Source: Micromonospora echinaurantiaca (GTDB lineage Bacteria > Actinomycetota > Actinomycetes > Mycobacteriales > Micromonosporaceae). Taken from it: 64,000 nucleotides of DNA. Position numbers and translations under genes: made by a program. The stretch lies in contig NZ_LT607750.1 of NCBI RefSeq assembly GCF_900090235.1, positions 1,872,501 through 1,936,500 on the forward strand, given 5' to 3'. Under the pieces are notes generated by a model. It worked only from the letters and a program-made list of their open reading frames with translations, was not told the origin of the DNA and did no database searches. Numbering within the stretch: position 1 is the stretch's first letter; every line of letters starts with the position of its first letter. This document shows positions 3,844-31,268 of this stretch, one piece after another.

Positions 3844-3893
3844 CACCGCACCAAGTGTGCGGATTTCAGGGCAATTATCAAGAGGGGTCCGGG

Positions 3894-3928: not shown

Positions 3929-3945
3929 CGCTACACCGGGTTCCG

Positions 3946-13311: not shown

Positions 13312-14154
13312 TCAGCCGACGTCCCGGCGGACCGCCAGCCAGGTGCCGAGCCCGAACGTCAGCAGGACGTATCCGGCCAGCACGGTGGCCGGCAGCACGG
13401 CGCTGGTGGCGTCGAGCACGCCGGGCGTACCGCCGTCGAACTGGGACCGGGAGCCCAGCGCGCCGGCCAGCGCGCCGGAACTCGGCGCCAGCAACAGCTT
13501 CTGCGGCACCGTCAGCGGGTCGAGGACGAGGGCGAGCCCGCTGACCGCGTTCTCCAGCACCAGCGTCCACACCAGACCGACGGCGATCGCGGTGGCGGTG
13601 CTGCGGAAGGCGATCGCGAGGAACCAGCCGACCCCGGCGTGGGCGGTGCAGATCAGCCAGGCGGCGGCCACCGCCCCGGCGACGTTCCCGGCCGGCGGCC
13701 AGTCGGGTCCCCGCCCTTCGATCGCGGCCAGCACCCCGGTGACCAGCGCCAGCGCCGCGAAGGTGGCGACCACGACCAGCAGGGTCAGCCCGCACAGGAC
13801 GACGGCGTGCCCGGCCATCACCTGCGCTCGCCGCGGTCGCTGTGTGAAGATCAGGTTCAGCGTGCCCCAGCGGTACTCGTTGCCGACCACCAGCGCGCCG
13901 AGGATCACCACGATCGCCCCGCCGAAGAGCGGGAACAGTCCGATCCCGGTGGTGACCAGCTCGCCGGGCAGGACGGCGGCGAGCAGCGACTCGGCGGCCT
14001 CCGCCTGCTCCGGGTCGCCGGCCAGCGCCAGGTGCACCAGGTAGGGGATGCCGACGCCGAAGGCGAGCGCCAGGATCGTCCAGGTCGCGGTGATCGTCCA
14101 CACCGCCGGTCGCTTCCGGTCGGCGAACCAGGCCGCGCGGATCGAACCGATCAT
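13312..14154 (-). CDS. ABC-2-type transporter permease
   Basis: A 280-residue integral membrane protein with about six hydrophobic segments and the ABC-2 permease layout: a cytoplasmic N-terminus (IRAAWFADRKRPAVW), a central loop containing NEYRWGTLNLIFTQRPRR, the coupling-helix-like motif of this family, and a C-terminal membrane helix. The ATG overlaps the ATPase stop by four bases. With the upstream ATPase it forms an exporter. It lies divergently from the RiPP operon, so it could export the peptide or give self-protection, but this is inferred from position only. Confidence 0.8.
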   Translation of the reverse strand: MIGSIRAAWFADRKRPAVWTITATWTILALAFGVGIPYLVHLALAGDPEQAEAAESLLAAVLPGELVTTGIGLFPLFGGAIVVILGALVVGNEYRWGTLNLIFTQRPRRAQVMAGHAVVLCGLTLLVVVATFAALALVTGVLAAIEGRGPDWPPAGNVAGAVAAAWLICTAHAGVGWFLAIAFRSTATAIAVGLVWTLVLENAVSGLALVLDPLTVPQKLLLAPSSGALAGALGSRSQFDGGTPGVLDATSAVLPATVLAGYVLLTFGLGTWLAVRRDVG

Positions 14155-15170
14155 CGGGCGCCTCCCGTCACGGTCGCGGACTCGTGCCGCTCGCCGGGCG
14201 CCGGCTCGTCGGGCTCCGGGGCCGCCGGCTCGGCGCGGTCGCGGCCCGGCGACCGGTCGCCGGGTGCGGCGGTCAGTTCCAGGAACGCCTCCTCCAGCGA
14301 GTGGCGCAGCGGGCGCAGTTCCCGTACGTCGACGCCGGCCTCGACCAGGCGTCGGTTGAGTTCCGCGGCCAGCGCCGGATCGGTGGTGACCCGCAGCAGC
14401 CCGTCGACCACCTCGACCGCCCGGACCCGGTCGTGCTCGCGCAGCTGGGCGACCGCCGCGTCCACCGGGTCGGCGTCGATCAGCAGCACGGCCCGGCCCA
14501 GCGCCTCGCGCAGGTCGTCCGGGCTGCCGTCGGCGACCAGCCGGCCGTGGTCGATGACCGCGATCCGGTCGCAGATCTGCTCCACCTCGCCGAGGACGTG
14601 GCTGGACAGCAGCACGGTCCGGCCCTGCTGCCCGAGCGAGCGGAGCAGCTCCCGGATCTCGGAGACGCCGGCCGGGTCGAGGCCGTTGGTCGGCTCGTCC
14701 AGGATCAGCAGGTCCGGTTCCTTGAGCAGCGCGGCGGCCACCCCGAGTCGCTGCTTCATGCCCAGCGAGTAGGTGCGGAACGCCGAACCCGCCCGCCCGG
14801 CCAGGCCGACCTCGGCGAGCACCCGCTCGGCGGCGCCGTCGGGCACCCCGGCGTAGCGGGCGGCCAGCCGCAGATTGTCCAGCCCGGACAGGTGCGGGTA
14901 GAACGTCGGCGACTCGATGAGGGCGCCGACCCGGGCCAGTTGCCCCGGCGCCCCGGGCGGCAGGCCCAGCACCCGGATCCGTCCGCTGGTGGGCCGGACC
15001 AGCCCGACCAGCATGCGCATGGTGGTTGTCTTGCCCGCGCCGTTCGGCCCCAGGAAGCCGAGCACCTCGCCCGCGGGCACCCGCAGGTCGAGGCCGTCGA
15101 CAGCGGTCACCCCGCCGGGATAACGCTTGGTGACCCCGGCCAATTCAATGGCAAATCGGTCATTCCTCAA
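14151..15170 (-). CDS. ABC transporter ATP-binding protein
   Basis: About 339 residues. Walker A is GPNGAGKTT, the Q-loop lies near LARVGALIESP, the signature is SLGMKQRLG and Walker B is LLILDEPTNGLDP followed by the H-loop SSH. The about 90-residue C-terminal extension is typical of drug/bacteriocin-type (CcmA/NatA-like) ATPases. Start set at the TTG at 15170: it overlaps the stop of a short leader ORF as TTGA and gives a normal N-terminus (LRNDRFAIELAGVTKRYPG). A TTG at 15218 would add 16 residues of atypical sequence without a ribosome site. Confidence 0.8.
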   Translation of the reverse strand: MRNDRFAIELAGVTKRYPGGVTAVDGLDLRVPAGEVLGFLGPNGAGKTTTMRMLVGLVRPTSGRIRVLGLPPGAPGQLARVGALIESPTFYPHLSGLDNLRLAARYAGVPDGAAERVLAEVGLAGRAGSAFRTYSLGMKQRLGVAAALLKEPDLLILDEPTNGLDPAGVSEIRELLRSLGQQGRTVLLSSHVLGEVEQICDRIAVIDHGRLVADGSPDDLREALGRAVLLIDADPVDAAVAQLREHDRVRAVEVVDGLLRVTTDPALAAELNRRLVEAGVDVRELRPLRHSLEEAFLELTAAPGDRSPGRDRAEPAAPEPDEPAPGERHESATVTGGAR

Positions 15171-15235
15171 CGCGGCGCCGCAATCGTACGCCCTCGCGCG
15201 AGGTTTCCGACGGCCCAATTTGACGCAATGTTCAT
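15167..15235 (-). CDS. Possible 22-residue leader ORF before the ABC ATPase gene
   Basis: Starting at the ATG at 15235 with a well-spaced AAGGA ribosome site, this ORF encodes MNIASNWAVGNLARG and seven further residues. It ends at a TGA (15169-15167) that overlaps the TTG start of the ATPase gene. The better ribosome site belongs to this small ORF, so the ATPase would be translated by coupling. It resembles regulatory leader peptides of resistance ABC genes, but no stem-loop or arrest motif was identified, and it could be chance. Confidence 0.35.
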   Translation of the reverse strand: MNIASNWAVGNLARGRTIAAPR

Positions 15236-15626
15236 CCGGCAGTCCTTAGAATTCCTGACCGCGACACAGGGTTAATTGCGTGCGGTCAACTAACTGCTCG
15301 TTAAGGCAACTGCCCAGGTCGCGACGGGGGTCGGGCCTGGGCCGTGTCATCGTGCCGCCGCCGGTCGCGGCCCTTGCCGTGTAACGATGTAAAAGCCTCT
15401 GACCTGCGGCGGGGCCGATGACGCCCACAGCGTAGCGGAGGTCGATCGTCGCCGGAAGGCCCCTCGGCGCGTGCCGCCCATCGATTTTGTCTTAGCCGCA
15501 GCTCAGCCCGTACGAATTCACCGTCACCACTGGTCGACGCGAAACATTCTGTTGACGAATGAATTGATCTTGGGCAGCATGAAGGCACTTTCGAGTTGAC
15601 CGTGGTCGTTGGCATGGGGGCCGAAG
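15236..15626. promoter_or_regulatory. Divergent intergenic region upstream of the RiPP operon
   Basis: About 390 bases without a gene and clearly richer in A/T than the surroundings. It must hold the promoters of the ABC operon (minus) and the RiPP operon (plus). A plus-strand candidate is TTGACG at 15552-15557, 17 bases, then CAGCAT at 15575-15580, which would start transcription about 40 bases before the first RiPP gene. A TTGACC on the minus strand near 15282-15287 is a weaker candidate for the ABC operon. No clear operator palindrome was found. Confidence 0.45.
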
Positions 15627-17768
15627 ATGAGCCAGTCGCCGGACGGTGGAATGACCCTTGAAATGCGTCCCAAGCTCCGGCACGACGTGGTGTTCCTGGA
15701 CGCTCCGGCGGGTGCCTACCTGCGCGGCCCGGACACCGCCTTCCTGATCAAGGGACGGTCCGCCTTCCGGTGGCTGAGCTCGCTGAGCCCCTACCTCACC
15801 GGCGAGCACACCCTCGCGCAGCTCACCGCCACCCTGGAACCCGGCCAGCGGCAGACCGTGCTGACCCTGGTCCGGGCGCTGGTCGCCCGCGGCTTCGCCA
15901 AGGACGCCGGCGACCGTACCGAGCTGCCGGAGCCGGTGGCCCGCCGCTTCGCCGCCCAGATCGAATTCGTCGACCACTTCGCCGACGACGCGACCGGCCG
16001 GTTCCGCCGCTTCCACGCCGCCCGGGTGGCGCTCGGCGGTGGGGGAGCGCCGCTGCTGGCCGCGGCGGCCGGCCTGCTCCGCAACGGGTGCCTCCGGCTC
16101 GACCTGCACCCGGACGACGACCCCGCACCCTACCTCGAGGCCCTGCGGCCCGAACTGGACGAGCTGCGCGCCGACGGGCTGCCGGTCGAGGTCACCGTCG
16201 GCACCGGGCCGCTGGCCGCCACCGGCGCCGACGCGGTGCTCCACTGCGCCGGCCCGGACGGGCTGGCCGGCCTGGCCGAGCTGGCCCGCGCCAGCCACCG
16301 GGACGGCCCGCTGCTGGTGCCGGTGGTCTGGGACGGCGACCGGGCGGTGGTCGGGCCGACCGTGGCGGCCGGACAGACCCCCTGCTGGTGCTGCGCCCAG
16401 CTACGGCTGACCGCCACCGCCGAGCCGGCGGCGGCCGCCGACTTCTGGCGCCGCGCCGCCCTCGGCACCGGCGAGCCGGTCTTCCTGCCCGAGGTGACCG
16501 GGCGGATGCTGGGCAACGCCGCCGCCTTCGAACTCTTCCGCGCGCTGACCGGCGCCGTGCCGCCGGACACGGCCGCGGGCGTGCTGCTGCTCGACCCGAC
16601 CACGCTGGAATCGAGCCGCGAGCGGGTGCTGCCGCACCCCGCCTGCCCGGTCTGCCGGGACGTCGAGGTGACCGCGCCGGCGGCGCCACCCGCCTCGGAC
16701 GACGAGACCTACCAGCGGGCCGAGGCGCTGGTGTCCCCGTACGCCGGGGTGTTCACCCGGTTCGTGGACGACCCGCTGGAGCAGGCCCCGCTGAAGACGG
16801 CCCGGCTGCGGCTGCCGGGGCGGCGCGGGCCGCGCGAGGTGACCGCGTTCGACGTGCACACCGTGATGAACGCCCGGCTGGCCGCCTACCGGGTCGCGGT
16901 CCGGGAGCACGCCGCCCGCCATCCGGACCCGGCCGCCGTGCGGACGGCGTCGGCCGTCGAACTGCGCGAGCAGGGCGAGCATCCGGTCCCGTGGTTGGAA
17001 CTGGACTCGGCCACCGGAGCGCCCCCGATGGACCCGGCACGGCGGACACGTTGGCTCCGCGCGGCGGTGCTCGGGCGGCCGGAGACCGTCTGGGTGCCGG
17101 CCGCGCTGGCGCTGCCCACCTCCGCGCTGAACGCCGAGGGCTGGGCCGAGCCGACCGTGGCCGGCGCGGCCGTCGCCGCCACCGTCGACGGCGTGATCGA
17201 CCAGGGGCTGGCCGACGCGCTGGCGTACCGCGCGCTCACCGCCGCCCTGCGCGGCCGGGGCGACCTGCGGTCGCTGGCCGAGGAGGACCTGGTCGGCGAC
17301 GACGACACCGCGTTCGTGGTCAAGGCGGCGCGCCGGTTCGGCCGGCGGCTGTCGGTCTTCGTCCTGGGCGCCGCCGCCCCCGCGCACGCGGTGCTCGCCG
17401 TCACCGAGGCCCCCGACGGCGGCGACCGCGGCTGGGCGCTGGCCGCCGGCTTCGACCCGGTGTCCGCCCGGCTGGCGGCCGTGCGGGACGCGGTCGGCCG
17501 GGTCCAGGTGCGGCACTTCGAGGGTACGGACGCCGACCTCGGCGACCCGCTGCTGCGCGACTTCGACCCGGCGGCGGTCACCGTCCACGCCACCACCGGC
17601 GCGGCCGCGCCGGCCAGCGCCACCGACCGGGCCACCGTGCTGGCCGCGCTGGCCGAGCGGGGAACCGACGCCCTGCTGGTCGAGACCACCACCCGCGACG
17701 TCCGGGCGAGCGGCGCCTTCCGTAGCGGGGTGGTCCTGCTGCGCCACCACGGCCGAGCGGCCGACTGA
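15627..17768 (+). CDS. Ocin-ThiF-like TOMM leader-peptide-binding protein
   Basis: A 713-residue protein. The N-terminal about 90 residues (MRPKLRHDVVFLDAPAGAYL onward) have the winged-helix look of a RiPP recognition element. The middle part is an E1/ThiF-like domain without a nucleotide-binding glycine loop but with two Cys clusters, CWCC near 252 and CPVC near 340, that likely hold a structural zinc. The C-terminal half has no motif I can name. Such F-type proteins bind the precursor leader and deliver it to a YcaO enzyme in thiopeptide and goadsporin-like pathways. ATG 15627 is used, with GGGGG as ribosome site; a TTG at 15609 is possible. It is first in the operon, 53 bases before precursor 1. 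Confidence 0.75.
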   Translation: MSQSPDGGMTLEMRPKLRHDVVFLDAPAGAYLRGPDTAFLIKGRSAFRWLSSLSPYLTGEHTLAQLTATLEPGQRQTVLTLVRALVARGFAKDAGDRTELPEPVARRFAAQIEFVDHFADDATGRFRRFHAARVALGGGGAPLLAAAAGLLRNGCLRLDLHPDDDPAPYLEALRPELDELRADGLPVEVTVGTGPLAATGADAVLHCAGPDGLAGLAELARASHRDGPLLVPVVWDGDRAVVGPTVAAGQTPCWCCAQLRLTATAEPAAAADFWRRAALGTGEPVFLPEVTGRMLGNAAAFELFRALTGAVPPDTAAGVLLLDPTTLESSRERVLPHPACPVCRDVEVTAPAAPPASDDETYQRAEALVSPYAGVFTRFVDDPLEQAPLKTARLRLPGRRGPREVTAFDVHTVMNARLAAYRVAVREHAARHPDPAAVRTASAVELREQGEHPVPWLELDSATGAPPMDPARRTRWLRAAVLGRPETVWVPAALALPTSALNAEGWAEPTVAGAAVAATVDGVIDQGLADALAYRALTAALRGRGDLRSLAEEDLVGDDDTAFVVKAARRFGRRLSVFVLGAAAPAHAVLAVTEAPDGGDRGWALAAGFDPVSARLAAVRDAVGRVQVRHFEGTDADLGDPLLRDFDPAAVTVHATTGAAAPASATDRATVLAALAERGTDALLVETTTRDVRASGAFRSGVVLLRHHGRAAD

Positions 17769-17821
17769 ACCACCACACCAGTGGTCCCGGCGAGGCACGC
17801 ACCCTGGAAGGAGGTGGACAC

Positions 17822-18004
17822 ATGCCGATCACCCTGAACGACGAGCTCCGTGAGCTGGAGACCGAGACCTTCGAGATCGAGGAGGTCGAGGACGGCGGCG
17901 AGGCGCTCGCCGCGAGCAGCTCCAGCTGCTCCTGCTCCAGCTGCTGCAGCTGCAGCACGTCGAGCTGCTGCAGCACCAGCACCAGCACCTCCAGCTGCGG
18001 CTGA
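17822..18004 (+). CDS. RiPP precursor peptide 1, Cys/Ser/Thr-only core
   Basis: A 60-residue peptide. The acidic leader (1-31) contains ELRELETETFEIEEVED, shared with the other two precursors and the probable recognition motif. Residues 32-60 are the core: 16 Ser, 8 Cys, 4 Thr and a final Gly, so 28 of 29 residues can be cyclised or dehydrated. It begins SSSSCSCSSCCSCSTSSCC. The ATG has a strong AAGGAGGTGG ribosome site. Bases 17918-17989 differ at only two positions from precursor 3. The leader/core boundary is probably near Ala30-Ala31. It resembles predicted thiazolylpeptide-type bacteriocin precursors; no characterised peptide with this core is known to me. Confidence 0.85.
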   Translation: MPITLNDELRELETETFEIEEVEDGGEALAASSSSCSCSSCCSCSTSSCCSTSTSTSSCG

Positions 18005-18007
18005 CCG

Positions 18008-18034
18008 GGCGTCCGGGGTTGACGCCCCGACGCC
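18008..18034 (+). terminator. Hairpin directly after precursor 1
   Basis: GGCGT, one bulged C, CGGGG, a six-base loop, then CCCCG and ACGCC form a 10-pair stem starting four bases after the stop codon. There is no U run, so it may be an attenuator or an mRNA 3' stabiliser rather than a full terminator. Confidence 0.5.
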
Positions 18035-18191
18035 GACGACCTCCAGTCCTGGTGGGACACCGCAAGACGACGCACCATCCGCCGCCGGCCGACACCGGCG
18101 AGTAGCCCCTGCGTGCCTCCGCTGGATCCACCGTGGTGGTGCGGGCAGACCCACCGACGACTGGCACCGACCGCGGCTCAAGGAGAGGCCC

Positions 18192-18410
18192 GTGCCGACC
18201 CAACCCCTGACATCCGGCGCACTGCCCGACTCGGTCCGCAGTGAACTGCGCGATCTGCAGACCGAGACGTTCGAGGTCGAGGACATCGCGGATCTGTCCG
18301 CCGACCTCATGGACATCTGCAGCAGCAGCACGAGCACGTCGAGCTGCTCCAGCTGCAGCACGTCCAGTTGTTGCAGCTGCACCTCGTCGAGTTGCAGCAG
18401 CACCAGCTGA
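18192..18410 (+). CDS. RiPP precursor peptide 2, Cys/Ser/Thr-only core
   Basis: A 72-residue peptide from a GTG with an AAGGAGAGG ribosome site. The leader carries ELRDLQTETFEVEDI at about 18-32, matching precursors 1 and 3, but has a longer N-terminus (MPTQPLTSGALPDSV). From Cys43 to the end all 30 residues are Ser (18), Cys (7) or Thr (5). The Cys spacing differs from the other two, so this is a distinct product. The core starts with Cys43 after MDI, so the cleavage site is not the same as in precursor 1. It lies 187 bases after precursor 1. Confidence 0.85.
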   Translation: MPTQPLTSGALPDSVRSELRDLQTETFEVEDIADLSADLMDICSSSTSTSSCSSCSTSSCCSCTSSSCSSTS

Positions 18411-18420
18411 GCCGTGGCGC

Positions 18421-18449
18421 CGCCGGCCGCTCCGGACGGCCGGCCGGCG
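18421..18449 (+). terminator. Hairpin after precursor 2
   Basis: CGCCGGCCG (18421-18429), an 11-base loop, then CGGCCGGCG (18441-18449): a perfect nine-pair stem starting 11 bases after the stop of precursor 2 and ending before the ribosome site of precursor 3. It has no U run. Confidence 0.45.
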
Positions 18450-18481
18450 TCGGGGCCCCGAAACACCGAGGGGAGGTAGAA

Positions 18482-18667
18482 GTGCCGGAACTGACTGAGG
18501 AACTGCGCGCGCTGGAGACGGAGACGTTCGAGATCGAGGACGTCGACGCCGTCGACGCGATGGTCATGGACTGGTCCAGCTCCAGCTGTTCCTGCTCCAG
18601 CTGCTGCAGCTGCAGCACGTCGAGCTGCTGCAGCAGCAGCACCAGCACCGGATGCGGCGGCGGCTGA
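18482..18667 (+). CDS. RiPP precursor peptide 3, near-copy of precursor 1
   Basis: A 61-residue peptide from a GTG with a GAGGGGAGGT ribosome site. The leader has ELRALETETFEIEDVD. The core (32-61) again begins SSSSCSCSSCCSCSTSSCC, then diverges to end in TGCGGG: 15 Ser, 8 Cys, 3 Thr and 4 Gly. At DNA level 18578-18649 matches precursor 1 at 70 of 72 bases, while the leaders and the last 10 residues differ, so duplication or gene conversion kept the core. The Trp31 just before the core is unusual and could serve as a chromophore tag of the leader or first residue of the product. Confidence 0.85.
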   Translation: MPELTEELRALETETFEIEDVDAVDAMVMDWSSSSCSCSSCCSCSTSSCCSSSTSTGCGGG

Positions 18668-18680
18668 CCGTCGCCACCGT

Positions 18681-18707
18681 CCCCGCCGGCGAGCCACGCC
18701 GGCGGGG
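18681..18707 (+). terminator. Strong hairpin between the precursors and the enzyme genes
   Basis: CCCCGCCGGC (18681-18690), a seven-base loop and GCCGGCGGGG (18698-18707) form a perfect 10-pair stem 13 bases after the stop of precursor 3. It precedes the YcaO gene with no tract of T. In RiPP operons such elements let most transcripts end after the precursor genes, giving substrate in excess over enzymes. Confidence 0.6.
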
Positions 18708-18754
18708 CACCCCGGTCCGCCCCGCAACCGCAGCGAGCCAGACAGGTGAACCGC

Positions 18755-20713
18755 ATGATCGTCGACGTCCGGACCACCTCCACCGGGTGGGACTCCAGCC
18801 TCAAACACCTCGGCGAGGCGTTGCACCAGCGACGCCAGGACCTGGCGCCCCGGCCCGCCGGCCCGCCGCGGCTGGACGGGATCACCGTCCGCGTCGCGGC
18901 CCTCGGCCTGACCGACCTGCAGCGCGACGACGCCGCCGGGCCGACCGGTGACGTGGTGCCGATCTGGCTGCACGGCGCCACCGCCCTGGTCGGCCCCCGC
19001 TGGTCGCCACCGGTGGGCGGGCAGCGGCCGGGCCCGTGCCCGGTCTGCGTGCAGCGCCGCTGGCAGGCCATCCGGCTCCGGGACGAGCGGCACGCCCTGG
19101 AACACGGCGCCGCCGTCGGCACCGTGGCGGCGCTGCCGCACCTGACCCCGTTCGCCGTCGACGCGGTCTGGCAACTGCTGCTCGACGCGTGCCGGCCGCA
19201 GCCCGGCCGGCCCGGCGTCGGCCGGTTGCGGCAGCTGCGGATGGACACCCTGGAGACGTCGATGGTCGAGGTGCTGGCCGACTCGGAGTGCCCGGCCTGC
19301 GCCACCCCGGCGCCGGACACCGCCGAGGCCGCGGTGATCCGGCTGACCAGCCGGCCCAAGCCGGACGTGTCCGCGTACCGGCTGCGGTCGGCCCGGGAGC
19401 TGGACCTGCCGGTCGGGGCGCTGGCCAACCCGGTCGCGGGCGCGCTGGGCGGCAACGCGCTGCGCGCCTACAACGCCACCGCCACCGCGCCGGTCACCGG
19501 CTACTTCCGGGTCCGCAGCCGCTACGACCTGCACGAGATGTGGTGGAGCGGGCACGCCGACAGCTACGGCGCGAGCGAGACGTACGCGCTGCTGGAGGGG
19601 CTGGAGCGGTACGCCGGGCAGTTCCCCCGCGCCCGGCGGACCACTGTCTTCGACAGCTACGCCAACCTGGCGCCGGACGCGCTGGACCCGGCCGGGCTGG
19701 GCTACCACCCGGCGTTCTACCACGGCCACGGCCTCTACTACGCCCCGTACTCGCCGACCGAGCCGATGCACTGGGTGTGGGGCTGGTCGCTGCGCGACCG
19801 GGCCCCCCGGCTGGTGCCCGAGCAGCTCGTCTACTACCTGGACCGGCGCACCGACCAGCGCAAGTTCGTCCAGGAGTGCTCCAACGGCTGCGCCAGCGGC
19901 AGCTGCCCGGAGGAGGCCCTGCTGCACGGCATGCTCGAACTGGTCGAGCGGGACGCCTTTTTGCTCGCCTGGTACGGCTCGGCCCGGCTCGCCGAGATCG
20001 ACCCGGCCACCTGCCGCGACGAGCGGGTGCACTTCATGCTCGACCGGGTGGACCTGCTCGGGTACGACATCCGGCTCTTCGACACCCGGGCCGACCTGCC
20101 GGTCCCGGTGGTCACCGCGGTCGCGGTGAAGCGCGGCGACGGCCTCGGCCAGCTCTGCTTCGCCGCCGGCGCCAGCCTCGACCCCGAGGACGCGGTCCGC
20201 GCGGCGGTCTGCGAAACCGCGTCCTACGTGCCCGGCTTCGACGAGCGGGTCGCCGCCAGCGAGCCGGAACTGCGCGAGATGACCCGGGACTACACCAAGG
20301 TCACCGAGCTGAGCCACCACGCCCTGCTGTACGGGCTGCCGGAGATGACGCGGCACGCCCGGTTCCTCTTCGACGACCCGCCGCTGCGCTCGATGACCGA
20401 GCTGTACGGCGACTGGCTGGCGACCCGGCCGACCCACGACGACCTGCGGGCCGACACGGAGTACCTGTGCGGGCTGATCGCCGGACTGGGCGGCGACGTG
20501 GTGGCGGTCGACCAGACCTGCCCCGAGCAGGAGATCGCCGGGGTGCACACGATGGCGGTGGTGGCGCCCGCCCTGGTGCCGATCGACTTCGGTTGGCAGC
20601 GGCAGCGGGTGCTCTGGAGCGACCGGCTGGCCCGGCACCTGGCCCGCGGCCCGCAGGGGCCCGACCGGCTCGGCGCGACCGGCCGCAACCCGAACCCGCA
20701 CCCCTTTCCCTAG
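18755..20713 (+). CDS. YcaO cyclodehydratase (azoline-forming)
   Basis: A 652-residue protein. Residues 1 to about 190 are a reduced E1-like (C-protein) domain with Cys pairs PCPVC near 93 and CPAC near 177, likely a zinc site. The YcaO domain follows: SETYALLEGLERY near 273-285 and EALLHGMLELVERDAF near 386-401 carry the ATP-binding Glu/Arg residues. The C-terminus is RNPNPHPFP, the Pro-rich tail typical of YcaO enzymes that make azolines by phosphorylating the peptide amide. It should convert core Cys (and perhaps Ser/Thr) to thiazolines and oxazolines. The ATG at 18755 was chosen because an AGGTGA site lies seven bases upstream; a GTG at 18746 overlaps that site. Confidence 0.9.
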   Translation: MIVDVRTTSTGWDSSLKHLGEALHQRRQDLAPRPAGPPRLDGITVRVAALGLTDLQRDDAAGPTGDVVPIWLHGATALVGPRWSPPVGGQRPGPCPVCVQRRWQAIRLRDERHALEHGAAVGTVAALPHLTPFAVDAVWQLLLDACRPQPGRPGVGRLRQLRMDTLETSMVEVLADSECPACATPAPDTAEAAVIRLTSRPKPDVSAYRLRSARELDLPVGALANPVAGALGGNALRAYNATATAPVTGYFRVRSRYDLHEMWWSGHADSYGASETYALLEGLERYAGQFPRARRTTVFDSYANLAPDALDPAGLGYHPAFYHGHGLYYAPYSPTEPMHWVWGWSLRDRAPRLVPEQLVYYLDRRTDQRKFVQECSNGCASGSCPEEALLHGMLELVERDAFLLAWYGSARLAEIDPATCRDERVHFMLDRVDLLGYDIRLFDTRADLPVPVVTAVAVKRGDGLGQLCFAAGASLDPEDAVRAAVCETASYVPGFDERVAASEPELREMTRDYTKVTELSHHALLYGLPEMTRHARFLFDDPPLRSMTELYGDWLATRPTHDDLRADTEYLCGLIAGLGGDVVAVDQTCPEQEIAGVHTMAVVAPALVPIDFGWQRQRVLWSDRLARHLARGPQGPDRLGATGRNPNPHPFP

Positions 20714-20723
20714 GAGCACCGAC

Positions 20724-22676
20724 ATGCAGCAGCAGGCGATCGAGGTGGTCCGGGACTACGCCGGGGCGGTGTTCCGCCGGGCCCGGGTGCCGATGGAACC
20801 GCTCGACTACGAGGTGGACTGGGTCGACCAGCCGTCCCGGCACACCAGCTACCCCGGCGCGCCCCGGGTGCCGCTGCCGGCCGACCTGCCGGCGCTGCCC
20901 ACCCTGCGCGAGCTGTTCACCGGGGAGCACCCGCCGCCGCGGGCCGGCTGGTCGCTGCCCCGGCTGGCGACGCTGCTGCGGCTGTCGTACGGGGTGCTCG
21001 ACCGACGGCTGACGGTCAACTGGAACCAGGACGTCGCCAAGCGGACCCACTTCGAGCACGCCGTGTGGGGCCGGGGCACCGCCTCCGGCGGAGGCATGTA
21101 TCCGGTGGAGCTCTACCTGGTCAGCGGGGCGTCCGGGCCGCTGCTGCCCGGCGTGTACCACTACCACACCGGCCAGCACGTGCTGGAGCGGCTGCTGCTC
21201 GGCGACGTCACCGGCACCGTACGCGGCGCCCTCGACCCCGCCGGCCGCCCTACCGGTGTCGGGGACAGCTTCCTGCTGGCCGCCATCCGGTTCTGGAAGA
21301 ACTCCTTCAAGTACAACAGCTTCTGCTACCACGTGGTCACCCAGGACCTGGGCGCGCTGCTCGGCTCGTGGGAGCTGCTCGCCGACGCGCTGGGCGTACC
21401 GCTGCGCCGGCTGCTCTGCTTCGATCCGGCGCCGCTGGACCGGCTGCTCGGCTTCGACAGCGACCAGGAGGGCGTCTTCGCCGTCGTCCCGATCGAGTGG
21501 TCCGCCGACCGTCCGGCCGTCGATCACCCGGCCGCCGGTTACCCGGCCGCCGGTTACCCGGCCGCCGGTCACCCGGCCGCCGACCGCCCGGCCGGCGCCG
21601 TCCCGACCTCCCGCCCACCCGGCGAGATGTCGACCGGCGTCGCCCCAACCGATCGCGGTTTCGGGGACGGCCCGAACGGCGGGCCGTCCCCGGACGGGGC
21701 CGGGCTGGCAACCGAGCTGCGGGTGCGGTATCCGGCCTTTGAGCGGTCCCGGCAGGTCCGGCGGTTCCCGGCCGTCACCGCGGTGCACGGGGCGGCGGCG
21801 ATGCCGACCAGGCCCGCCCCGGGCGCGCTCGCCGACGCCGCCCCTCGGCGGTGGCCGGGTGAACCCGTCGCCCTGCCCGAGCCGGCGCTGGCGTCGCTGG
21901 ACCGTCCGCTGTCGACGGTGCTGGCCAGCCGGTCGAGCAGCTTCGGCCGGTTCCGCCGGCCGCCGGAGCTGACCGCCGCCGAACTCGGCACCACGCTGGC
22001 CTTCGCCGCCGCCGGCCGACCCCACCCGGCCGACGCCGACCCGGTCGCACCACCCCCGGCCGGCGCCGATCCGGTCGCGCCACCCCCGGCGGACGCCGCG
22101 CCGCTCGGGCCGCGCACCGGCACGGCCGAGCCGCACCCGGCCGGCACCACGGCGTCCGGCCGCGACCCGGGCAACGGTGCGGCGGCCGGGCCCGACCCGG
22201 CCGGCGGCACCGGGTCCGGCGGGCCGGCGCTGACCCGGCTCTGGGTCTTCGCCAACCACGTCGACGGCCTCGCCACCGGCAGCTACGCCTACTGCCCCCG
22301 CCGGCACGCGCTGCTGCCCGCCGGGGCGGCCCCCGAGGGTGGCATGTCCGCCTTCCTGCAACAGCAGTACTTCCTCACCAACTACACGATGGGGCAGGTG
22401 GGCGCGGTGCTGGCCGTCTCCGGCCGGCTGGACGCCGTGCTCGACGCCGTCGGCCCGCGCGGCTACCGGATCCTGAACGCCGAGATCGGCGCCGTGGCGC
22501 AGCGGGCGTACTGCGCGGCGACCGCGCAGCGCATCGGCTGCGGCGCCGTCCTGGGCTTCGACAACGTCGCCATGGACGAGGCGCTCGGCCTCACCGGCAC
22601 CGACGAACGGACGGTGTTGTTCCTGCTGCTCGGGCGGCATCCGGACGCCGTCGCCGACCTGGCGTACCGGCTGTGA
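20724..22676 (+). CDS. Duplicated SagB-type azoline dehydrogenase
   Basis: A 650-residue protein containing two nitroreductase-fold halves. The first (about 50-265) has TASGGGMYPVELYLV and FWKNSFKYNSFCYHVVTQDLG; the second (about 350-650) has LTRLWVFANHVDGLATGSYAY and MSAFLQQQYFLTNYTMGQVG. Single SagB-type oxidases are FMN enzymes that oxidise thiazolines to thiazoles. The halves are joined by a Pro/Ala/Gly linker that includes a pentapeptide repeat, and a second low-complexity stretch (HPADADPVAPPPAG onward) lies inside the second half. One half is probably catalytic and the other structural, but which keeps FMN was not settled. The TAGGAG ribosome site lies six bases before the ATG. Confidence 0.8.
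   Translation: MQQQAIEVVRDYAGAVFRRARVPMEPLDYEVDWVDQPSRHTSYPGAPRVPLPADLPALPTLRELFTGEHPPPRAGWSLPRLATLLRLSYGVLDRRLTVNWNQDVAKRTHFEHAVWGRGTASGGGMYPVELYLVSGASGPLLPGVYHYHTGQHVLERLLLGDVTGTVRGALDPAGRPTGVGDSFLLAAIRFWKNSFKYNSFCYHVVTQDLGALLGSWELLADALGVPLRRLLCFDPAPLDRLLGFDSDQEGVFAVVPIEWSADRPAVDHPAAGYPAAGYPAAGHPAADRPAGAVPTSRPPGEMSTGVAPTDRGFGDGPNGGPSPDGAGLATELRVRYPAFERSRQVRRFPAVTAVHGAAAMPTRPAPGALADAAPRRWPGEPVALPEPALASLDRPLSTVLASRSSSFGRFRRPPELTAAELGTTLAFAAAGRPHPADADPVAPPPAGADPVAPPPADAAPLGPRTGTAEPHPAGTTASGRDPGNGAAAGPDPAGGTGSGGPALTRLWVFANHVDGLATGSYAYCPRRHALLPAGAAPEGGMSAFLQQQYFLTNYTMGQVGAVLAVSGRLDAVLDAVGPRGYRILNAEIGAVAQRAYCAATAQRIGCGAVLGFDNVAMDEALGLTGTDERTVLFLLLGRHPDAVADLAYRL
21525..21599 (+). repeat. 15-base tandem repeat in the dehydrogenase linker
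   Basis: Five in-frame 15-base units encode HPAAG, YPAAG, YPAAG, HPAAD and RPAGA. The first three are nearly identical (the second and third are the same). They form the flexible linker between the two nitroreductase halves and could vary in copy number between strains. Confidence 0.8.
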
Positions 22677-22705
22677 CGTCCACCCCGCCGACGAAGGGAA
22701 TCACC

Positions 22706-25483
22706 GTGACGGTCGCCCTGCCCGCGCCTTCGGCCACCGAGGTGTCCTGGCGGATGCCCGAGGTCTTCATGCTGCGTACCGCCGGCCTGCCGCTGGAGGT
22801 CGCCGACCGGCTGGCCTTCGACCGCAGCGCCGCCTGGGCCCGCCGGGTCCTCGACCTGGAGGACCAGCTCCGGGCCACCGGCCGGGAGCTCGCCGACGAC
22901 CTCCAGGGCGCGGTCGCCCGCAACCTCGACGACGAGCGGCTGCGGCGGCGGCTGATCCGGCTCCGCCGCGACGTCTACAACCTGCGCCGGCCGGACCCCG
23001 ACGACCCGGCCGGGTGGCCGGTGGAGCCGCTGGGCGAGCCGACCCACCGGGCGTTGGCCGACTGGCTGACGCGGCACGCCGCGTATCGGCGCGAGCTGGC
23101 CGGCGGCCCGGCGGTGCTCACCGAGGAGCTGGCCGAACGCCGGGGGCTGCTGCGCGACCTGGCCGACGACCCCGACCTGCGCGGCGGGATCCTGCTCGCC
23201 TCCCCGTCGCTGGACCAGTACCTGCCCGGCTACCTGGCGACGCCGGGCCGGCTCGGCAAGCGGGCCCGGCGGGTGGAGCGGTCGTTGCTGGAGTACGCGC
23301 TGCGCACCGCCTGCAAGACCAGCCCGTTCAGCCGGCTGACCACCGTCAACGTCGGCACCTTCGGCCCCGGCACCGGGCCGTTGCTCACCGCCGAACCGGT
23401 CCCCGGCGCGGCCGCCGACGCGAAACAGGGGGTGGCCCGGCTCAACCTCGCCGCGCTGGGCCGGATCTCCGCCATCGTGCTGGCCGACGAGACGCTCCGC
23501 GCCGACCTGCCGGTCACCCTCACCACCGGCTGGCGGATCGAGCGGGGCCGGCTGCGCTACCTGCGCCGGCGCCGGACCGGATCGGAGGACGGCGACGCGG
23601 CGGTCACCCTGGAGTCCATCCACGAGTCGCTCTTCGTGCTGCCCACCGGTCGGGTGCTGCACGACATCCTGGCCGCGCTCGCCGGCGGCCGGGTCCGACG
23701 GATGGCCGACCTGGTCACCGAGCTGGCCACCGCCGACCGCCCGGCGGCCGAGGTGGAGCAGTACCTGCACCACCTGCTCCGGGTCGGGCTGCTGGTGGTG
23801 CCGAACCTGCACCTGGACATCCACGCCGCCGACCCGGTCGACGGCTACCGGCGGGCGCTGCGGCGGATCGGCCGGGACTGGGCGGACCGGCTCGCCGACC
23901 GGGTCGGCATGGTCAACCGGCTGGCCACCGGCTACCCGGCCCACGACGTCGCCGGGCGCCGCCAGGTGCTCGCCGACATCCGCCGGGAACTGGCCGCGGC
24001 CCACGCCGACCTGGGTCGCTCCGACGTGCCGGCGCCGCGCACCCTGCTCTACGAGGACGCCACCCTGCGTACCCGGAGGCCGGTCACCGCCGCCCGCGGC
24101 AGTTGGGAACGGGACGTCCTGCCCGGGCTGCGGGCGCTGGCCCGGATCATGCCGGTCTTCGACATCAACCTGCCCCGCCGGCTGGCCACCAAGGGCTTCT
24201 TCCGGGCCCGCTACGGCGTCGGCGGCCGCTGCGACGACCTGCTCACCTTCGCCCACGAGTTCCAGCAGGACTTCTTCGAGCACTACACCGGGCGGATGAT
24301 GCGCCGGCGTGCCTTCGACGCGGACAACGCCTACGTCCGGCAGGAGAACTGGTTCCGGCAGGACGAGATCACCGCGCTGGACGACGCCCGGATCGAGGTC
24401 GCCCGGCGGATCAACGAGGCGTACGGCCGGCTGCCGGCCGGCGCCGAGGAACTGCGCCTCGACGACGCGTTCCTGGCCGACGTCGCCGCGATGGTGCCGG
24501 AGAGCCTCGGCACGCTGGACCCCCGGTCCTTCTTCCTCCAACTGGCCGACCAGGGCGACCGGCACCGGGTGGTGGTGAACCGGGTCTACTCCGGAATGAC
24601 CCTGCTCTTCTCCCGGTTCGCCCACCTCTTCGCCGACGCGGACCTGGCCGGCGCGCTCCGCGCCGAACTGGCCCGGTTGCAACCGCCCGGCGCGGTGCTC
24701 GCCGAGCTCAAGGGCGGGTACGACGCCACCAACCTCAACCTGCACCCGGCGGTCACCCCCTACGAGCTGGTCTGCCCCGGCGAGATCAGCTTCCGGCCGG
24801 ACGCCGAGCAGATCCACATGGACGACCTCAGCGTCGAACACGACCCGGCGAGCGACCGGTTGCTGCTGCGCTCCCGCCGGCTCGACGCCGAGGTGATCCC
24901 GGTCTACCTCGGGTTCCTGCTGCCGATGGCGTTGCCGGAGGTGCAGCAGGTGCTGCTCACCTTCGCCTACCTGGGCATGGCGCAGCCGGACCTGTGGGCC
25001 GGCACCACCGTGCCGCTGCCGGGGCGGGGCATCGCCGGCTACCCGCGGATCGTGCACGGCGACCTGGTGCTGCAACGGCGGATGTGGAAGCTGCACCCGG
25101 ACCACCTGCCACCGCCGCGCACCCCGGAGCAGGACGACGCGGACTGGTTCCTGCGCTGGCAGCGGTGGCGGCGCGACAACGGGCTGCCGCGCCGGGTCTT
25201 CGCCACCCCGGAGGGGACCCGGCTCGCTCCGGCCGCGGGCGACGAGACCGCGCAGCCCGGGGCGGCCGGCCGGCCGGACCACAAGCCGCTCTACGTCGAC
25301 TTCGACAGCCACTTCTGCCTGCAGCTGCTGGAGGCGACCGGACGGGCGGCGGGCAGCCGGCTGGTGCTCACCGAGATGCTGCCGGACCGCGACGAGCAGG
25401 TGCTCCGCGGGCCCGGCGGCACCCACGTCACCGAACTCACCGTCGAACTCAACGGCGTCCGAGTGGGAAAGGCGGACCGATGA
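22706..25483 (+). CDS. LanB-type dehydratase, glutamylation (large) subunit
   Basis: A 925-residue protein of the lantibiotic-dehydratase N-terminal family (TbtB/GodF-like). It lacks the C-terminal elimination domain, which is encoded by the next gene, as in thiopeptide and goadsporin pathways. Landmarks are FMLRTAGLPLEV at the start, LLEYALRTACKTSPFSRLTTV near 195, the NLPRRLATKGFFRARYG region and the final beta region PLYVDFDSHFCLQLLEA. It should transfer glutamate from glutamyl-tRNA to core Ser/Thr side chains. GTG 22706 has a GAAGGGAA site; an upstream GTG at 22673 overlaps the dehydrogenase stop. The stop overlaps the next ATG. Confidence 0.85.
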   Translation: MTVALPAPSATEVSWRMPEVFMLRTAGLPLEVADRLAFDRSAAWARRVLDLEDQLRATGRELADDLQGAVARNLDDERLRRRLIRLRRDVYNLRRPDPDDPAGWPVEPLGEPTHRALADWLTRHAAYRRELAGGPAVLTEELAERRGLLRDLADDPDLRGGILLASPSLDQYLPGYLATPGRLGKRARRVERSLLEYALRTACKTSPFSRLTTVNVGTFGPGTGPLLTAEPVPGAAADAKQGVARLNLAALGRISAIVLADETLRADLPVTLTTGWRIERGRLRYLRRRRTGSEDGDAAVTLESIHESLFVLPTGRVLHDILAALAGGRVRRMADLVTELATADRPAAEVEQYLHHLLRVGLLVVPNLHLDIHAADPVDGYRRALRRIGRDWADRLADRVGMVNRLATGYPAHDVAGRRQVLADIRRELAAAHADLGRSDVPAPRTLLYEDATLRTRRPVTAARGSWERDVLPGLRALARIMPVFDINLPRRLATKGFFRARYGVGGRCDDLLTFAHEFQQDFFEHYTGRMMRRRAFDADNAYVRQENWFRQDEITALDDARIEVARRINEAYGRLPAGAEELRLDDAFLADVAAMVPESLGTLDPRSFFLQLADQGDRHRVVVNRVYSGMTLLFSRFAHLFADADLAGALRAELARLQPPGAVLAELKGGYDATNLNLHPAVTPYELVCPGEISFRPDAEQIHMDDLSVEHDPASDRLLLRSRRLDAEVIPVYLGFLLPMALPEVQQVLLTFAYLGMAQPDLWAGTTVPLPGRGIAGYPRIVHGDLVLQRRMWKLHPDHLPPPRTPEQDDADWFLRWQRWRRDNGLPRRVFATPEGTRLAPAAGDETAQPGAAGRPDHKPLYVDFDSHFCLQLLEATGRAAGSRLVLTEMLPDRDEQVLRGPGGTHVTELTVELNGVRVGKADR

Positions 25484-26529
25484 CCAGGTATCCCTCGCCG
25501 ACTGCGCACGGCTGGCTCAGCGTCCACGTCTTCTACGCCAGCAACGCCAACCCGATGCTGGTCGAGGGCGTCCGGCCGCTGGTGGACGAGCTGCGCGCCG
25601 AAGGGCTGATCAGCCGCTACTTCTTCATCAAGTACTGGATGGAGGGCCCGCACGTCCGGCTGCGGGTGCTGCCCGCCCCGGGCGTCGACCCGGCGGTGGT
25701 CCGGGCGCGGGTGGACGCCGCGATCGACGCGTTCCTGCGCCGCCGTCCCGCGCTCTACGAGGTGGACAGCGACGGGCTCGGCGACCTGTACAAGCAGATG
25801 TACCTCGCCGAGTACGGCCGGCAGCGGTGGGACGAGGAGTACGGGCCGGACGGCGTGATGCCGATGCGGGCGAACAACAGCCGGCACCACATCCCGTACG
25901 AGCGCGAGTACGGCCGCTACGGCGGACCGGTTGGCATCGATCTCGCCGAGTGGCACTTCGAGCACTCCAGTGACGTGGTGCTGGACCTGCTCGCCACCAC
26001 CAACGTGCACGTCCGCCCGGTGCTGCTCGGCCTCTCCGCCCAGCTGACCATGATGATGTGCGCGGTCTTCCTCGCCGACGACCGGCGGATCGCCGGGTTC
26101 CTCGACGAGTATCGCCGGTTCTGGGAGGTCGCCTACGCCGAGCCGAGCGACGACTACCACGACAGCTTCGACACCAGCTACCGGCGGATGGACGACGCGC
26201 TGCGGGCCCGGCTGGCCGACATCCGGGCGGCCGCCCGCCAGGCCGCCGACGTACGCCCCGCCGGGGTGGAGGGCCGCTGGTCGGCGCACTGCCGCGAGCT
26301 GCGGGACCGGGTCGTGGCCGCGGCCGAGCGGGGTGACCTGGTGTTCCAGCGCGGCGCCGGCGAGCCCACCGTGGTGCGCGACCTCGACGCCGCGCTGCCC
26401 ATCCTGCTCAGCTCGTACGTGCACATGACCAACAACCGGCTCGGGGTGAGCATCCTCGACGAGATCTACCTGTCGTACCTGATGCGGACCGCACTGCTGG
26501 ACGACCTCGCCCCGGCGGCCCCGCGATGA
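25480..26529 (+). CDS. Thiopeptide-type dehydratase, elimination (small) subunit
   Basis: A 349-residue stand-alone SpaB_C-type protein (thiopeptide-type bacteriocin biosynthesis domain). Key stretches are WLSVHVFYASN at the N-terminus, FIKYWMEGPHVRLRV near 50, the hallmark YEREYGRYGGPVG near 140, AEWHFEHSSD, and VHMTNNRLGVSILDE near the end. It should remove glutamate from glutamylated Ser/Thr to leave dehydroalanine and dehydrobutyrine. The pyridine-forming enzymes of thiopeptide clusters share this fold, but only one such gene exists here and the glutamylation subunit needs an eliminase, so elimination is the more likely job. It overlaps both neighbours by ATGA. Confidence 0.85.
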   Translation: MTRYPSPTAHGWLSVHVFYASNANPMLVEGVRPLVDELRAEGLISRYFFIKYWMEGPHVRLRVLPAPGVDPAVVRARVDAAIDAFLRRRPALYEVDSDGLGDLYKQMYLAEYGRQRWDEEYGPDGVMPMRANNSRHHIPYEREYGRYGGPVGIDLAEWHFEHSSDVVLDLLATTNVHVRPVLLGLSAQLTMMMCAVFLADDRRIAGFLDEYRRFWEVAYAEPSDDYHDSFDTSYRRMDDALRARLADIRAAARQAADVRPAGVEGRWSAHCRELRDRVVAAAERGDLVFQRGAGEPTVVRDLDAALPILLSSYVHMTNNRLGVSILDEIYLSYLMRTALLDDLAPAAPR

Positions 26530-27758
26530 CTACCGTGGACGCGACCTGGGTCCGACCCCGGCTGCGGGCCGGGATCGTGCTCGGACCCGGCCAGTGGCGT
26601 GACGGGAAGCTCGTCCACCACGTCAAGGACCCGGAGACCGGCTGGTTCTACCGGATCGGGCCGCGCGAGCACTTCCTGCTGTCCCGGATGGACGGCACCC
26701 GGACGCTGGACGACCTCGCCGCCGAGTACGCCACCAGCTACCGGCGCCGGCTCGGGCCGGAGAACTGGCAGCAGCTCTTCGGCATGCTGCACCAGCGGCA
26801 ACTGCTGGACGGCGCCACCGATCCGCAGGCGCTCGCCCGGCTGACCGCCACGGCCGCCGAGAACGCGACGCGCACCCGACGCGGGCCGCTGTCCGCCCGG
26901 TTCCCGCTGTTCGACCCGGAACGGCTCTTCACCCGGCTGCTGCCCGCGATGTCGCCGCTGTTCAGCTGGTGGTTCGTCGTCCCGGCGCTGCTGGCGGTGC
27001 TGGCCGTCGCCGGGTACGTGGTGGTGTGCCTGCCCGAGATGCTCGCCGGGGTCGGGCGGGGCGGTAGGCCGCTCGCCGCGGTGCTGGCCGCCGTGGTGAT
27101 CACCTGGGCGGTGGTCTTCCTGCACGAGTGCGCGCACGGGCTGACCTGCCGGCACTTCGGCGGGCGGGTCACCGAGATCGGCGTGATGTGGCGGTTCCCG
27201 ATGCTGGCCCCGTACTGCAAGGTCGACGACATCGTGCTGTTCACCCCGCGCCGGCGGGTGGCCACCGCGTTCGCCGGCGTCTTCGTCAGCATGCTGGCCC
27301 TGGTGCCGTTCGCCGTGCTGCACGGCTGGGGCCCGGCCACCGGCGGGCTGCACGACCTGGCCGGCGCGATGCTGCTCTTCGGCACCGCCACCGCCGCGAT
27401 CAACCTGGTGCCGTTCCTGCGGCTGGACGGCTACCACATGCTCGGCCACGCGCTGAACCTGGCGGACCTGCGGGGAGACAGCTACCGGTTCTACGGCCGG
27501 CTGCTGCGCCAGGGCGCCGGAGCGGTACGCGGCTACCGACCGCGGGACCGGGCCGCGTACGCCCTCTACGGCCTGGCCTCGGCGGTGTTCGCGGTGACCG
27601 TGCTGACGCTACTGGTGCGCTACTGGTACGACGCGTTGCACGGCTGGGTCGGCGCCGGCTGGGCGGTCACCATCCTGGTCGCCGAGGCGGTGCTGGTGGC
27701 GGCGCTGCTCGCCCGCTTCACCGCCCGCCGCCCGACCGCGACGACCGGGACCGGCTGA
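26526..27758 (+). CDS. PqqD-like/M50 membrane metalloprotease fusion
   Basis: A 410-residue protein. Residues about 25-95 (GWFYRIGPREHFLLSRMDG, then a Leu-rich helix pair) look like a PqqD-type RiPP recognition element. From about 145 it is an integral membrane protein with about six hydrophobic segments. HECAH at 200-204 is the HExxH zinc motif and LRLDGYH at 298-304 matches the second zinc-binding motif of site-2 (M50) proteases. A protease that binds the leader itself could remove the leader at the membrane during export; this is inferred. It is the last gene of the operon, overlapping the eliminase gene by ATGA. Confidence 0.8.
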   Translation: MTTVDATWVRPRLRAGIVLGPGQWRDGKLVHHVKDPETGWFYRIGPREHFLLSRMDGTRTLDDLAAEYATSYRRRLGPENWQQLFGMLHQRQLLDGATDPQALARLTATAAENATRTRRGPLSARFPLFDPERLFTRLLPAMSPLFSWWFVVPALLAVLAVAGYVVVCLPEMLAGVGRGGRPLAAVLAAVVITWAVVFLHECAHGLTCRHFGGRVTEIGVMWRFPMLAPYCKVDDIVLFTPRRRVATAFAGVFVSMLALVPFAVLHGWGPATGGLHDLAGAMLLFGTATAAINLVPFLRLDGYHMLGHALNLADLRGDSYRFYGRLLRQGAGAVRGYRPRDRAAYALYGLASAVFAVTVLTLLVRYWYDALHGWVGAGWAVTILVAEAVLVAALLARFTARRPTATTGTG

Positions 27759-29377: not shown

Positions 29378-30370
29378 TCAGGCGATCCGCCGGATCCGGC
29401 GTACCGCGAGCAGCAGCAGGAGCGCGGCGAGCGCGACGAAGATGCCCGTCTCGATGTACTGGAACGCCCAGTACCGGTCCGCCGGCTGGTAGAGCTGCCA
29501 GTTGTAGGCGCCCGGCTCGAGGCCGAGTTCCGCCCCGCAGCGCCCACCGCTCGGCCCGGTTGCGCCGGGCGGGCAGGCGATCTGGGCGTTGGCCATCACC
29601 ATGGTGCCCTCGGCGTCGCGGATGCCGTTGGCGAGGATCCAGTCGCCGTGGGCCTGGTGCGGCATCGGGCTGTCGCTTTCCACGGGGAAGGTACGCGTCC
29701 GCGCCGCGATGTAACGCGGCCGGGCGAACTCCGCCAAGGCGACGCGCAGGCCGATGAAGCCGGCCAGGGTGGCCCCCATGGCCGGCAGCATCCGCGGCCA
29801 CAGCGTGCCGGCGAAGATCCCGAGCGCGACCGCGAGCACGGTGTAGCCGACCGGAACCAGCCCCTGCATGTCGAAGAGGAAGGGGTCGAGGCGGCCCTGC
29901 CGCTCCGCCTGGAGCAACGGGGTGAGCCACCAGGACATGCCCAGCCCGTAGCCGGCGGCCGCGACGATCGCGCCCGCCCCGACCAGCCCGAACTTGACAG
30001 CGGCCCAGCGGCGCCGGCTGACCCCCTGGGTCCACACCAGCCGGTGGGTGCCGTGCTCCACCTCCCCGGCGACCAGCGGGGCACCCCAGAACAGGCCGAC
30101 CAGCAGCGGCAGGACGAGGAACAGCACGCCCACCAGGTTCAACGTGTCGTACTGGTTGCTGAACTGGTCGAACGCACGGTTGCAGGTCTCCACCACGCCC
30201 GGCGCCAGCTCGGAGCGGGCCAGTTGGCGGACGCACTCCGGACCGCCGAGGTCGGCGAACCGGTTCCGCATGGCGAGGCCGGTGGGGACCAGCACGGCGG
30301 CGAGCGCCGCCAGGCCGGCGAGGGTGAACAGCGCCTGCCGGCGGTGTTGGCGCCAGGTCAGCCAGATCAT
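29378..30370 (-). CDS. ABC transporter permease of a YtrA-type operon
   Basis: A 330-residue membrane protein with about six hydrophobic segments and a large extracytoplasmic loop between segments 1 and 2 (about 40-95, containing two Cys). The N-terminus MIWLTWRQHRRQALFTLAGL and the motif EVEHGTHRLVWTQGVSRRRW are typical of actinobacterial ABC permeases paired with GntR regulators. The ATG overlaps the ATPase stop by ATGA. Together with the ATPase and the GntR gene it forms a three-gene operon of the YtrA type, usually linked to cell-envelope or antibiotic stress. Substrate unknown. Confidence 0.8.
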   Translation of the reverse strand: MIWLTWRQHRRQALFTLAGLAALAAVLVPTGLAMRNRFADLGGPECVRQLARSELAPGVVETCNRAFDQFSNQYDTLNLVGVLFLVLPLLVGLFWGAPLVAGEVEHGTHRLVWTQGVSRRRWAAVKFGLVGAGAIVAAAGYGLGMSWWLTPLLQAERQGRLDPFLFDMQGLVPVGYTVLAVALGIFAGTLWPRMLPAMGATLAGFIGLRVALAEFARPRYIAARTRTFPVESDSPMPHQAHGDWILANGIRDAEGTMVMANAQIACPPGATGPSGGRCGAELGLEPGAYNWQLYQPADRYWAFQYIETGIFVALAALLLLLAVRRIRRIA

Positions 30371-31257: not shown

Positions 31258-31268
31258 CCGGACTCCTC

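Follow-up and report, generated by a model that had tools for sequence, protein, structure and literature searches.

According to the papers cited here, several described peptides carry Ser, Thr and Cys residues converted into azoles and dehydroamino acids. Goadsporin has six azoles and two dehydroalanines (Dha), both Dha arising at a Ser immediately before an azole and requiring that azole (PMC5303826), whilst telomestatin derives from the core CTTSSSSS, in which all eight residues become azol(in)es (PMC5469769). Runs of at least 10 heterocyclizable residues have been described for cytolysins, and the coryneazolisins, a bioinformatic class from Corynebacterium with an unknown product, have cores of 10 Cys/Ser/Thr residues, an Ile and a further 5-7 Cys/Ser/Thr residues (both PMC4603692). 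The 30-residue core of carnazolamide, a dehydrazole, holds 20 Ser/Thr/Cys residues, eight of which become azoles and eight Dha, and its dehydratase acts only on Ser preceding an azole (PMC10676384). Here we analysed a 64,000-nucleotide stretch of the Micromonospora echinaurantiaca genome (contig NZ_LT607750.1, positions 1,872,501 to 1,936,500; hereafter the window, whose numbering is used throughout) that encodes three precursors, P1 to P3, with cores composed almost entirely of Ser, Cys and Thr. These probably belong to a ribosomally synthesized and post-translationally modified peptide (RiPP) cluster of thiopeptide/goadsporin ancestry that lacks a pyridine synthase and whose products are three linear peptides with very heavy modification.

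Three precursors and their conserved cores

The sequence-only reading had proposed three precursors within 17822-18667, and all three open reading frames (ORFs) are present on the forward strand: P1 (17822-18004, 60 residues, ATG start, core 17915-18001), P2 (18192-18410, 72 residues, GTG start, core 18318-18407) and P3 (18482-18667, 61 residues, GTG start, core 18575-18664). Its description of near-pure cores of 29-30 residues was borne out by the counts, with Ser/Cys/Thr making up 28 of 29 residues in the P1 core SSSSCSCSSCCSCSTSSCCSTSTSTSSCG and 30 of 30 in the P2 core CSSSTSTSSCSSCSTSSCCSCTSSSCSSTS; the P3 core SSSSCSCSSCCSCSTSSCCSSSTSTGCGGG has 26 of 30. The chemistry it named, azoles and dehydroamino acids, is also the one to be expected, the precursors adjoining genes for an F protein, a YcaO protein, a dehydrogenase and a split LanB dehydratase. 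All three leaders are acidic (ETETFE) and contain a block resembling E-L-R-x-L-x-T-E-T-F-E, and an AG-rich ribosome-binding site lies upstream of each ORF. P2 and P3 each pass one thiopeptide precursor model (P2, TIGR03892 thiopep_precurs, 28.9 bits, cut-off 25; P3, NF033400 thiazolyl_B, 32.8 bits, cut-off 30), whilst P1 passes neither (NF033400, 15.8 bits). A promoter and terminator scan of 15150-18760, uninformative here, found none.

Across all six frames of the window, a density of at least 25 Ser/Cys/Thr per 28 residues was reached by these three stretches only, and no 28-residue stretch had 18 in any of 30 copies of it generated with a first-order Markov model; the Ser/Cys/Thr-rich stretches are not due to chance. 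The GTG starts of P2 and P3 are supported because same-genus relatives have ATG or GTG at those sites: P3 begins with ATG in 19 of 20 same-genus loci and with GTG in one, and P2, found in 15 of the 20, begins with GTG in 11 and ATG in four.

A family-wide search with the YcaO protein gave matches at E <= 1e-60 in 67 of 354 genomes, and YcaO proteins of 83-100% identity defined a group of 21 loci, including the window's own, all within the window's genus. Scanning the named genome contigs with a SpaB_C alignment yielded 53 loci, 39 of which carried at least one precursor (114 in all). The 115 cores compared comprise those of 112 of these precursors and the window's three, their purity being partly imposed by the precursor filter (15 Ser/Cys/Thr in the last 26 residues) and the core definition (at least 80% Ser/Cys/Thr). 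Hosts included Micromonospora, Saccharothrix, Pseudonocardia, Jiangella, Kribbella, Haloactinopolyspora, Phytoactinopolyspora, Acrocarpospora, Nocardiopsis, Stackebrandtia, Modestobacter, Ornithinimicrobium and Nostocoides, together with a single Chloroflexota genome, Ktedonosporobacter rubrisoli, the remaining similar clusters being spread across Actinomycetota. One locus recorded under Streptomyces sp. SID13031 (L079) has precursors matching those of Kribbella (L078, L087), a possible mislabel. All three types, P1, P2 and P3, were present in 18 of the 39 loci; the 12 from Micromonosporaceae have the order P1-P2-P3 and the other six P2-P3-P1. Further clusters (for example in Nocardiopsis and Stackebrandtia) encoded different cores. 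Three Actinomadura loci (L100, L101 and L109) with F, YcaO, LanB, SpaB_C and M50 protease genes yielded no precursor even with looser filters, with which L112 gave two precursors whose cores are shorter and less pure.

In RiPP precursors it is commonly the core that varies. Where the P1-P3 types are shared, their cores are more conserved than the leaders and the enzymes, the most surprising feature of this family. The comparison covered a chosen subset of ten named loci with cores of equal length and at least 24 matches (the P2 of L079 and L087, made longer by the core rule, were excluded), and leaders were right-anchored and ungapped. SpaB_C, and not the core, had served to find the loci, yet the 24-match threshold favours similar cores; against non-Micromonospora loci, P1 cores were identical at 26-28 of 29 positions (eight comparisons), P2 cores at 27 of 30 (four) and P3 cores at 27-28 of 30 (seven). 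Leaders in these comparisons shared just 12-17 of 30-35 residues, and the best tblastn segments of the enzymes from the same seven loci had 31-62% identity. The sequence-only reading had suggested a precursor alignment across actinomycetes as a check; in the comparisons chosen here, the cores were nearly unchanged between families. The P1 of Kribbella L078 matches the window's at 28 of 29 core but only 14 of 31 leader positions, and its codons differ synonymously at ten sites, of which four are AGY-TCN Ser switches. As the core is kept whilst leader and codons diverge, the exact core residue is under selection, and it is unlikely that the precursor was recently transferred on its own. Homologous leaders, and core residues conserved across families whilst codons change (AGY-TCN Ser switches included), likewise establish that the P1-P3 reading frame is correct.

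Substitutions and the possible extent of modification

Exchanges between closely related cores were analysed in 114 unique cores, 58 from the loci and the rest solely from a protein search with P3, which favours similar cores; of its 159 candidates, 105 were relatives, several of them named 'thiazolylpeptide-type bacteriocin'. We used pairs of cores with one difference, since in a separate column table the pattern used predetermines several columns; these pairs, which are not independent, comprised 24 Cys-Thr, 17 Cys-Ser, nine Ser-Thr and four other exchanges (n = 54). Changing one base at a time in the window's core codons would yield 90 Cys-Ser, 68 Ser-Thr, 460 other and 0 Cys-Thr exchanges, the last of which take two base changes. 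The smaller, unbiased set restricted to loci (n = 10) gave three Cys-Thr, four Cys-Ser, three Ser-Thr and no other. This pattern hints that Cys and Thr share one role, as azoles, whilst Ser may have another, mostly as Dha and possibly with some oxazole. In P1, 10 of the 16 Ser directly precede Cys or Thr.

The sequence-only reading knew of no characterised compound that is an unbroken chain of azoles and dehydroamino acids, which was too strong, the eight-residue core of telomestatin ending wholly as azol(in)es; a fully modified chain of 29-30 residues would still be far longer than telomestatin's. A near-continuous chain would have Cys and Thr as azoles and Ser as Dha nearly everywhere, with up to 11-12 azoles and 15-18 Dha per 29-30-mer and almost no spacer. 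We put forward only tentatively, and regard as rather doubtful, the combined proposal that such chains form and that the three core types either build a single multi-component product or form a fixed trio acting on one sharply constrained target.

The rival to this full-chain reading is that part of the residues are modified, for example with Cys forming thiazole and part of the Ser forming Dha, the other Ser and Thr being left free, a possibility that carries some weight though it falls short of an even chance. It is compatible with the same enzymes as the linear-peptide cluster favoured here and opposes only the full-chain reading. Precedents favour it: carnazolamide bears eight azoles and eight Dha among 20 core Ser/Thr/Cys residues (PMC10676384), and goadsporin six azoles and two Dha (PMC5303826). 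Changes to residues other than Ser, Cys and Thr are scarce (4 of 54 observed, whereas 460 of the 618 non-synonymous neighbours one base away fall in this class), which is hard to reconcile with unmodified spacers, although the 80% core definition itself favours this contrast.

The SpaB_C protein and relationship to known classes

A thiopeptide requires a pyridine synthase, which is a SpaB_C homologue. The window's SpaB_C protein (25480-26529, forward strand; PF14028 162 bits, TIGR03891 106 bits, cut-off 48) is the only PF14028 protein in the genome and also its single match to the pyridine-synthase model NF045556, at 106 bits against a cut-off of 325. Because candidate synthases in other clusters, at 133-151 bits, likewise fall below 325, this cut-off alone cannot decide, and the motifs do. 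The protein contains HVRLR, YEREYGRYGG and HMTNNRL; these segments can be aligned with NisB and MibB and contain the NisB elimination residues, which types the protein as a glutamate-elimination enzyme. All three motifs were found in 50 of the 54 main SpaB_C ORFs of the 53 loci; L078 and L105 lack the third, and the remaining two ORFs are pieces of a split gene in L080. In this locus (Micromonospora tarensis, 7538-8583) the gene lies in two overlapping ORFs, either a broken gene or a sequencing error.

Five loci (L102, L103, L106, L110 and L111) had a second SpaB_C ORF, and all five of these ORFs lacked the second and third motifs and matched the pyridine-synthase model alone. Such ORFs occurred in five of the seven loci without an M50 protease match and in none of the 46 with one (Fisher 7e-6, hand count, with loci related to one another and flanks of at most 10 kb); the L102 contig stops right after SpaB_C, where M50 would sit, and without it the figures are four of six and 5.5e-5. 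An M50 match was present in 39 of 39 precursor-bearing loci. As thiopeptide ring formation removes the leader, according to a review (PMC10885120), a leader protease would be needed exactly where the ring enzyme is missing; in daptides, the intramembrane peptidase MpaP cleaves off the leader (PMC10036551).

A true macrocyclic thiopeptide, in which the lone SpaB_C protein, or else some enzyme not recognised as such, would form the six-membered ring, is nonetheless suggested by P2 and P3 passing the thiazolylpeptide models, by the names of several database relatives and by the predicted fold of SpaB_C (mean predicted local distance difference test score 81.9), which is nearest to TbtD/PbtD and then to NisB-type domains. 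We consider such a thiopeptide unlikely. The elimination motifs are kept here, whereas every second SpaB_C ORF elsewhere lacks two of the three, the genome's sole NF045556 match is this elimination-type protein, and none of the 46 M50-matched loci has a second SpaB_C within flanks of up to 10 kb. Were the only SpaB_C a cyclase, LanB would be left without its elimination partner. A pyridine-synthase role for SpaB_C, hinted at by NF045556 and the fold, was thus dropped on motifs and cluster distribution. Although databases use the name 'thiazolylpeptide-type bacteriocin', the cluster probably does not make a macrocyclic thiopeptide. That the ORFs are merely non-genic, low-complexity AGC/TGC-type repeat DNA is barely conceivable: their DNA is repetitive in AGC/TGC codons and has three short partial matches elsewhere in the genome, but the conserved leaders, starts, ribosome-binding sites and synteny, and residues conserved despite codon turnover, already refute it.

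Compared with thiopeptides of the thiomuracin type, the cluster shares the F protein, a fused YcaO, the dehydrogenase, a TbtB-like LanB and, for P2 and P3 only, a match to a precursor model, but differs in having no separate pyridine-synthase match, an M50 protease and nearly pure Ser/Cys/Thr cores of 29-30 residues. The genes match the broad goadsporin-like class of linear azole and dehydroamino-acid RiPPs, with YcaO, dehydrogenase and split LanB but no pyridine synthase. Goadsporin and the spongiicolazolicins have a YcaO, a dehydrogenase and a split LanB (GodF/GodG) without a [4+2] enzyme (PMC5303826, PMC4603692), and the expected conversion here of Ser before an azole into Dha is that of goadsporin (PMC5303826). 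Unlike goadsporin, the locus has an F protein, an M50 protease and nearly pure cores, its LanB is nearer to the solved protein 6ec7 than to the goadsporin one, and none of the family matches for the conserved genes at 13312-27758 corresponds to the peptidase-domain ABC transporter or the N-acetylation enzyme of goadsporin.

Coryneazolisins, likened here by description rather than sequence, also have lanthipeptide-like dehydratases without a [4+2] enzyme but two D proteins (PMC4603692) against one YcaO among the cluster genes here; the YcaO query had one match in the genome at E <= 1e-60. Dehydrazoles resemble the family through carnazolamide's 30-residue core, which carries eight azoles and eight Dha, the latter only before azoles, whereas the LanM-type DUF4135 dehydratase, proteusin-like leader, epimerase and methyltransferase described for them (PMC10676384) are not among the matches here. 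DUF4135 had no match among the Pfam-scanned cluster genes, the dehydratase being of the PF04738/PF14028 type. Telomestatin differs in its eight residues and macrocycle, and the available text describes no LanB-type dehydration for it (PMC5469769). The running text of open PMC papers yielded no description of this family or of a product, and the printed core strings SCSTSSCC, CSCSSCC and SSCSTSSCC retrieved only an unrelated bridging code.

Cluster genes, proposed pathway and implications

Upstream of P1 on the forward strand is the F protein (15663-17768), an ocin-ThiF-like, leader-binding type (TIGR03882 74.3 bits, cut-off 36.9; TIGR03693 82.7 bits, below its cut-off of 561.9; no Pfam match). 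Downstream, on the same strand, follow the YcaO cyclodehydratase with a fused N-terminal domain (18746-20713; TIGR03604 294 bits, cut-off 219; PF02624 280 bits), whose C-terminus ends in NPNPHPFP with a PxPxP motif at residue 649 of 655, and the SagB-family azoline dehydrogenase (20724-22676; TIGR03605 122.8 bits in two stretches, cut-off 78.4). The LanB glutamylation protein (22673-25483; PF04738 130 bits) has as best solved relatives 6ec7, a 'Lantibiotic dehydratase domain protein' that we take to be TbtB (E 1.4e-41), and 9jhq, a goadsporin biosynthetic protein (E 2.9e-17). Elsewhere in the genome (C1:3445916-3450141), two more ORFs with the LanB N-terminal domain (PF04738) lack a SpaB_C partner. 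Beyond SpaB_C lies the M50 site-2-type intramembrane metalloprotease (26526-27758; HECAH and NLVPFLRLDG; daptide protease model NF041824 178 bits, below its cut-off of 300), a candidate leader peptidase. On the reverse strand are an ABC-2 type (ATP-binding cassette) permease, presumably for export or self-protection (13312-14154; PF12679 30.8 bits, cut-off 27.2) and an ABC transporter ATPase (14151-15218), scanned against NCBIfam only, which matched drrA at 216 bits and lantibiotic-protection ATPases at 215 bits, both under their cut-offs.

The enzymes, M50 protease and ABC pair co-occur in all 15 same-genus loci of 19.5 kb (L035-L049) and in four of five more distant long loci (L050, L051, L053 and L054), with the ABC genes sited past M50 on its strand in L050, L053 and L054; in L052, pieces of SagB, F and YcaO alone were seen. 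P3 was matched in all 15 same-genus long loci, whilst P2 was partial in L037, weak in L048 and not found in L039 and L045. A second ABC transporter and a GntR regulator (29378-31679) were rejected as cluster members, since they had no syntenic match of their own in any of the 20 long loci; the ATPase query from this region matched only the position of the other ATPase. Near the cluster, 31918-33909 encodes an alpha-1,3-glucanase-type beta-helix protein (PF22815/PF22816). A group of closely spaced genes at 530-9009 resembles the mycobacterial ini genes; it encodes an Hsp70-like protein, two dynamin-like GTPases and an IniR-like ATPase/LuxR regulator (482 bits, cut-off 750).

From these genes we infer an order of steps, the likely ring and Dha positions and the roles of the F, M50 and ABC proteins. 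The F protein would bind the ETETFE leader and present the core to YcaO, and the SagB enzyme would oxidise azolines, turning most Cys into thiazole and probably many Thr into methyloxazole. LanB would next glutamylate Ser adjoining azoles, and SpaB_C would eliminate the glutamate to give Dha. The M50 protease may then cleave the leader at the membrane, and the ABC transporter may export the product or protect the cell.

The family has been hidden under the label 'thiazolylpeptide-type bacteriocin', and a simple rule, M50 with one elimination-type SpaB_C as opposed to a second SpaB_C, would sort it from real thiopeptides and can be tested in genome data. Ultimately, the conservation of its cores points to a precise product and a precise target.
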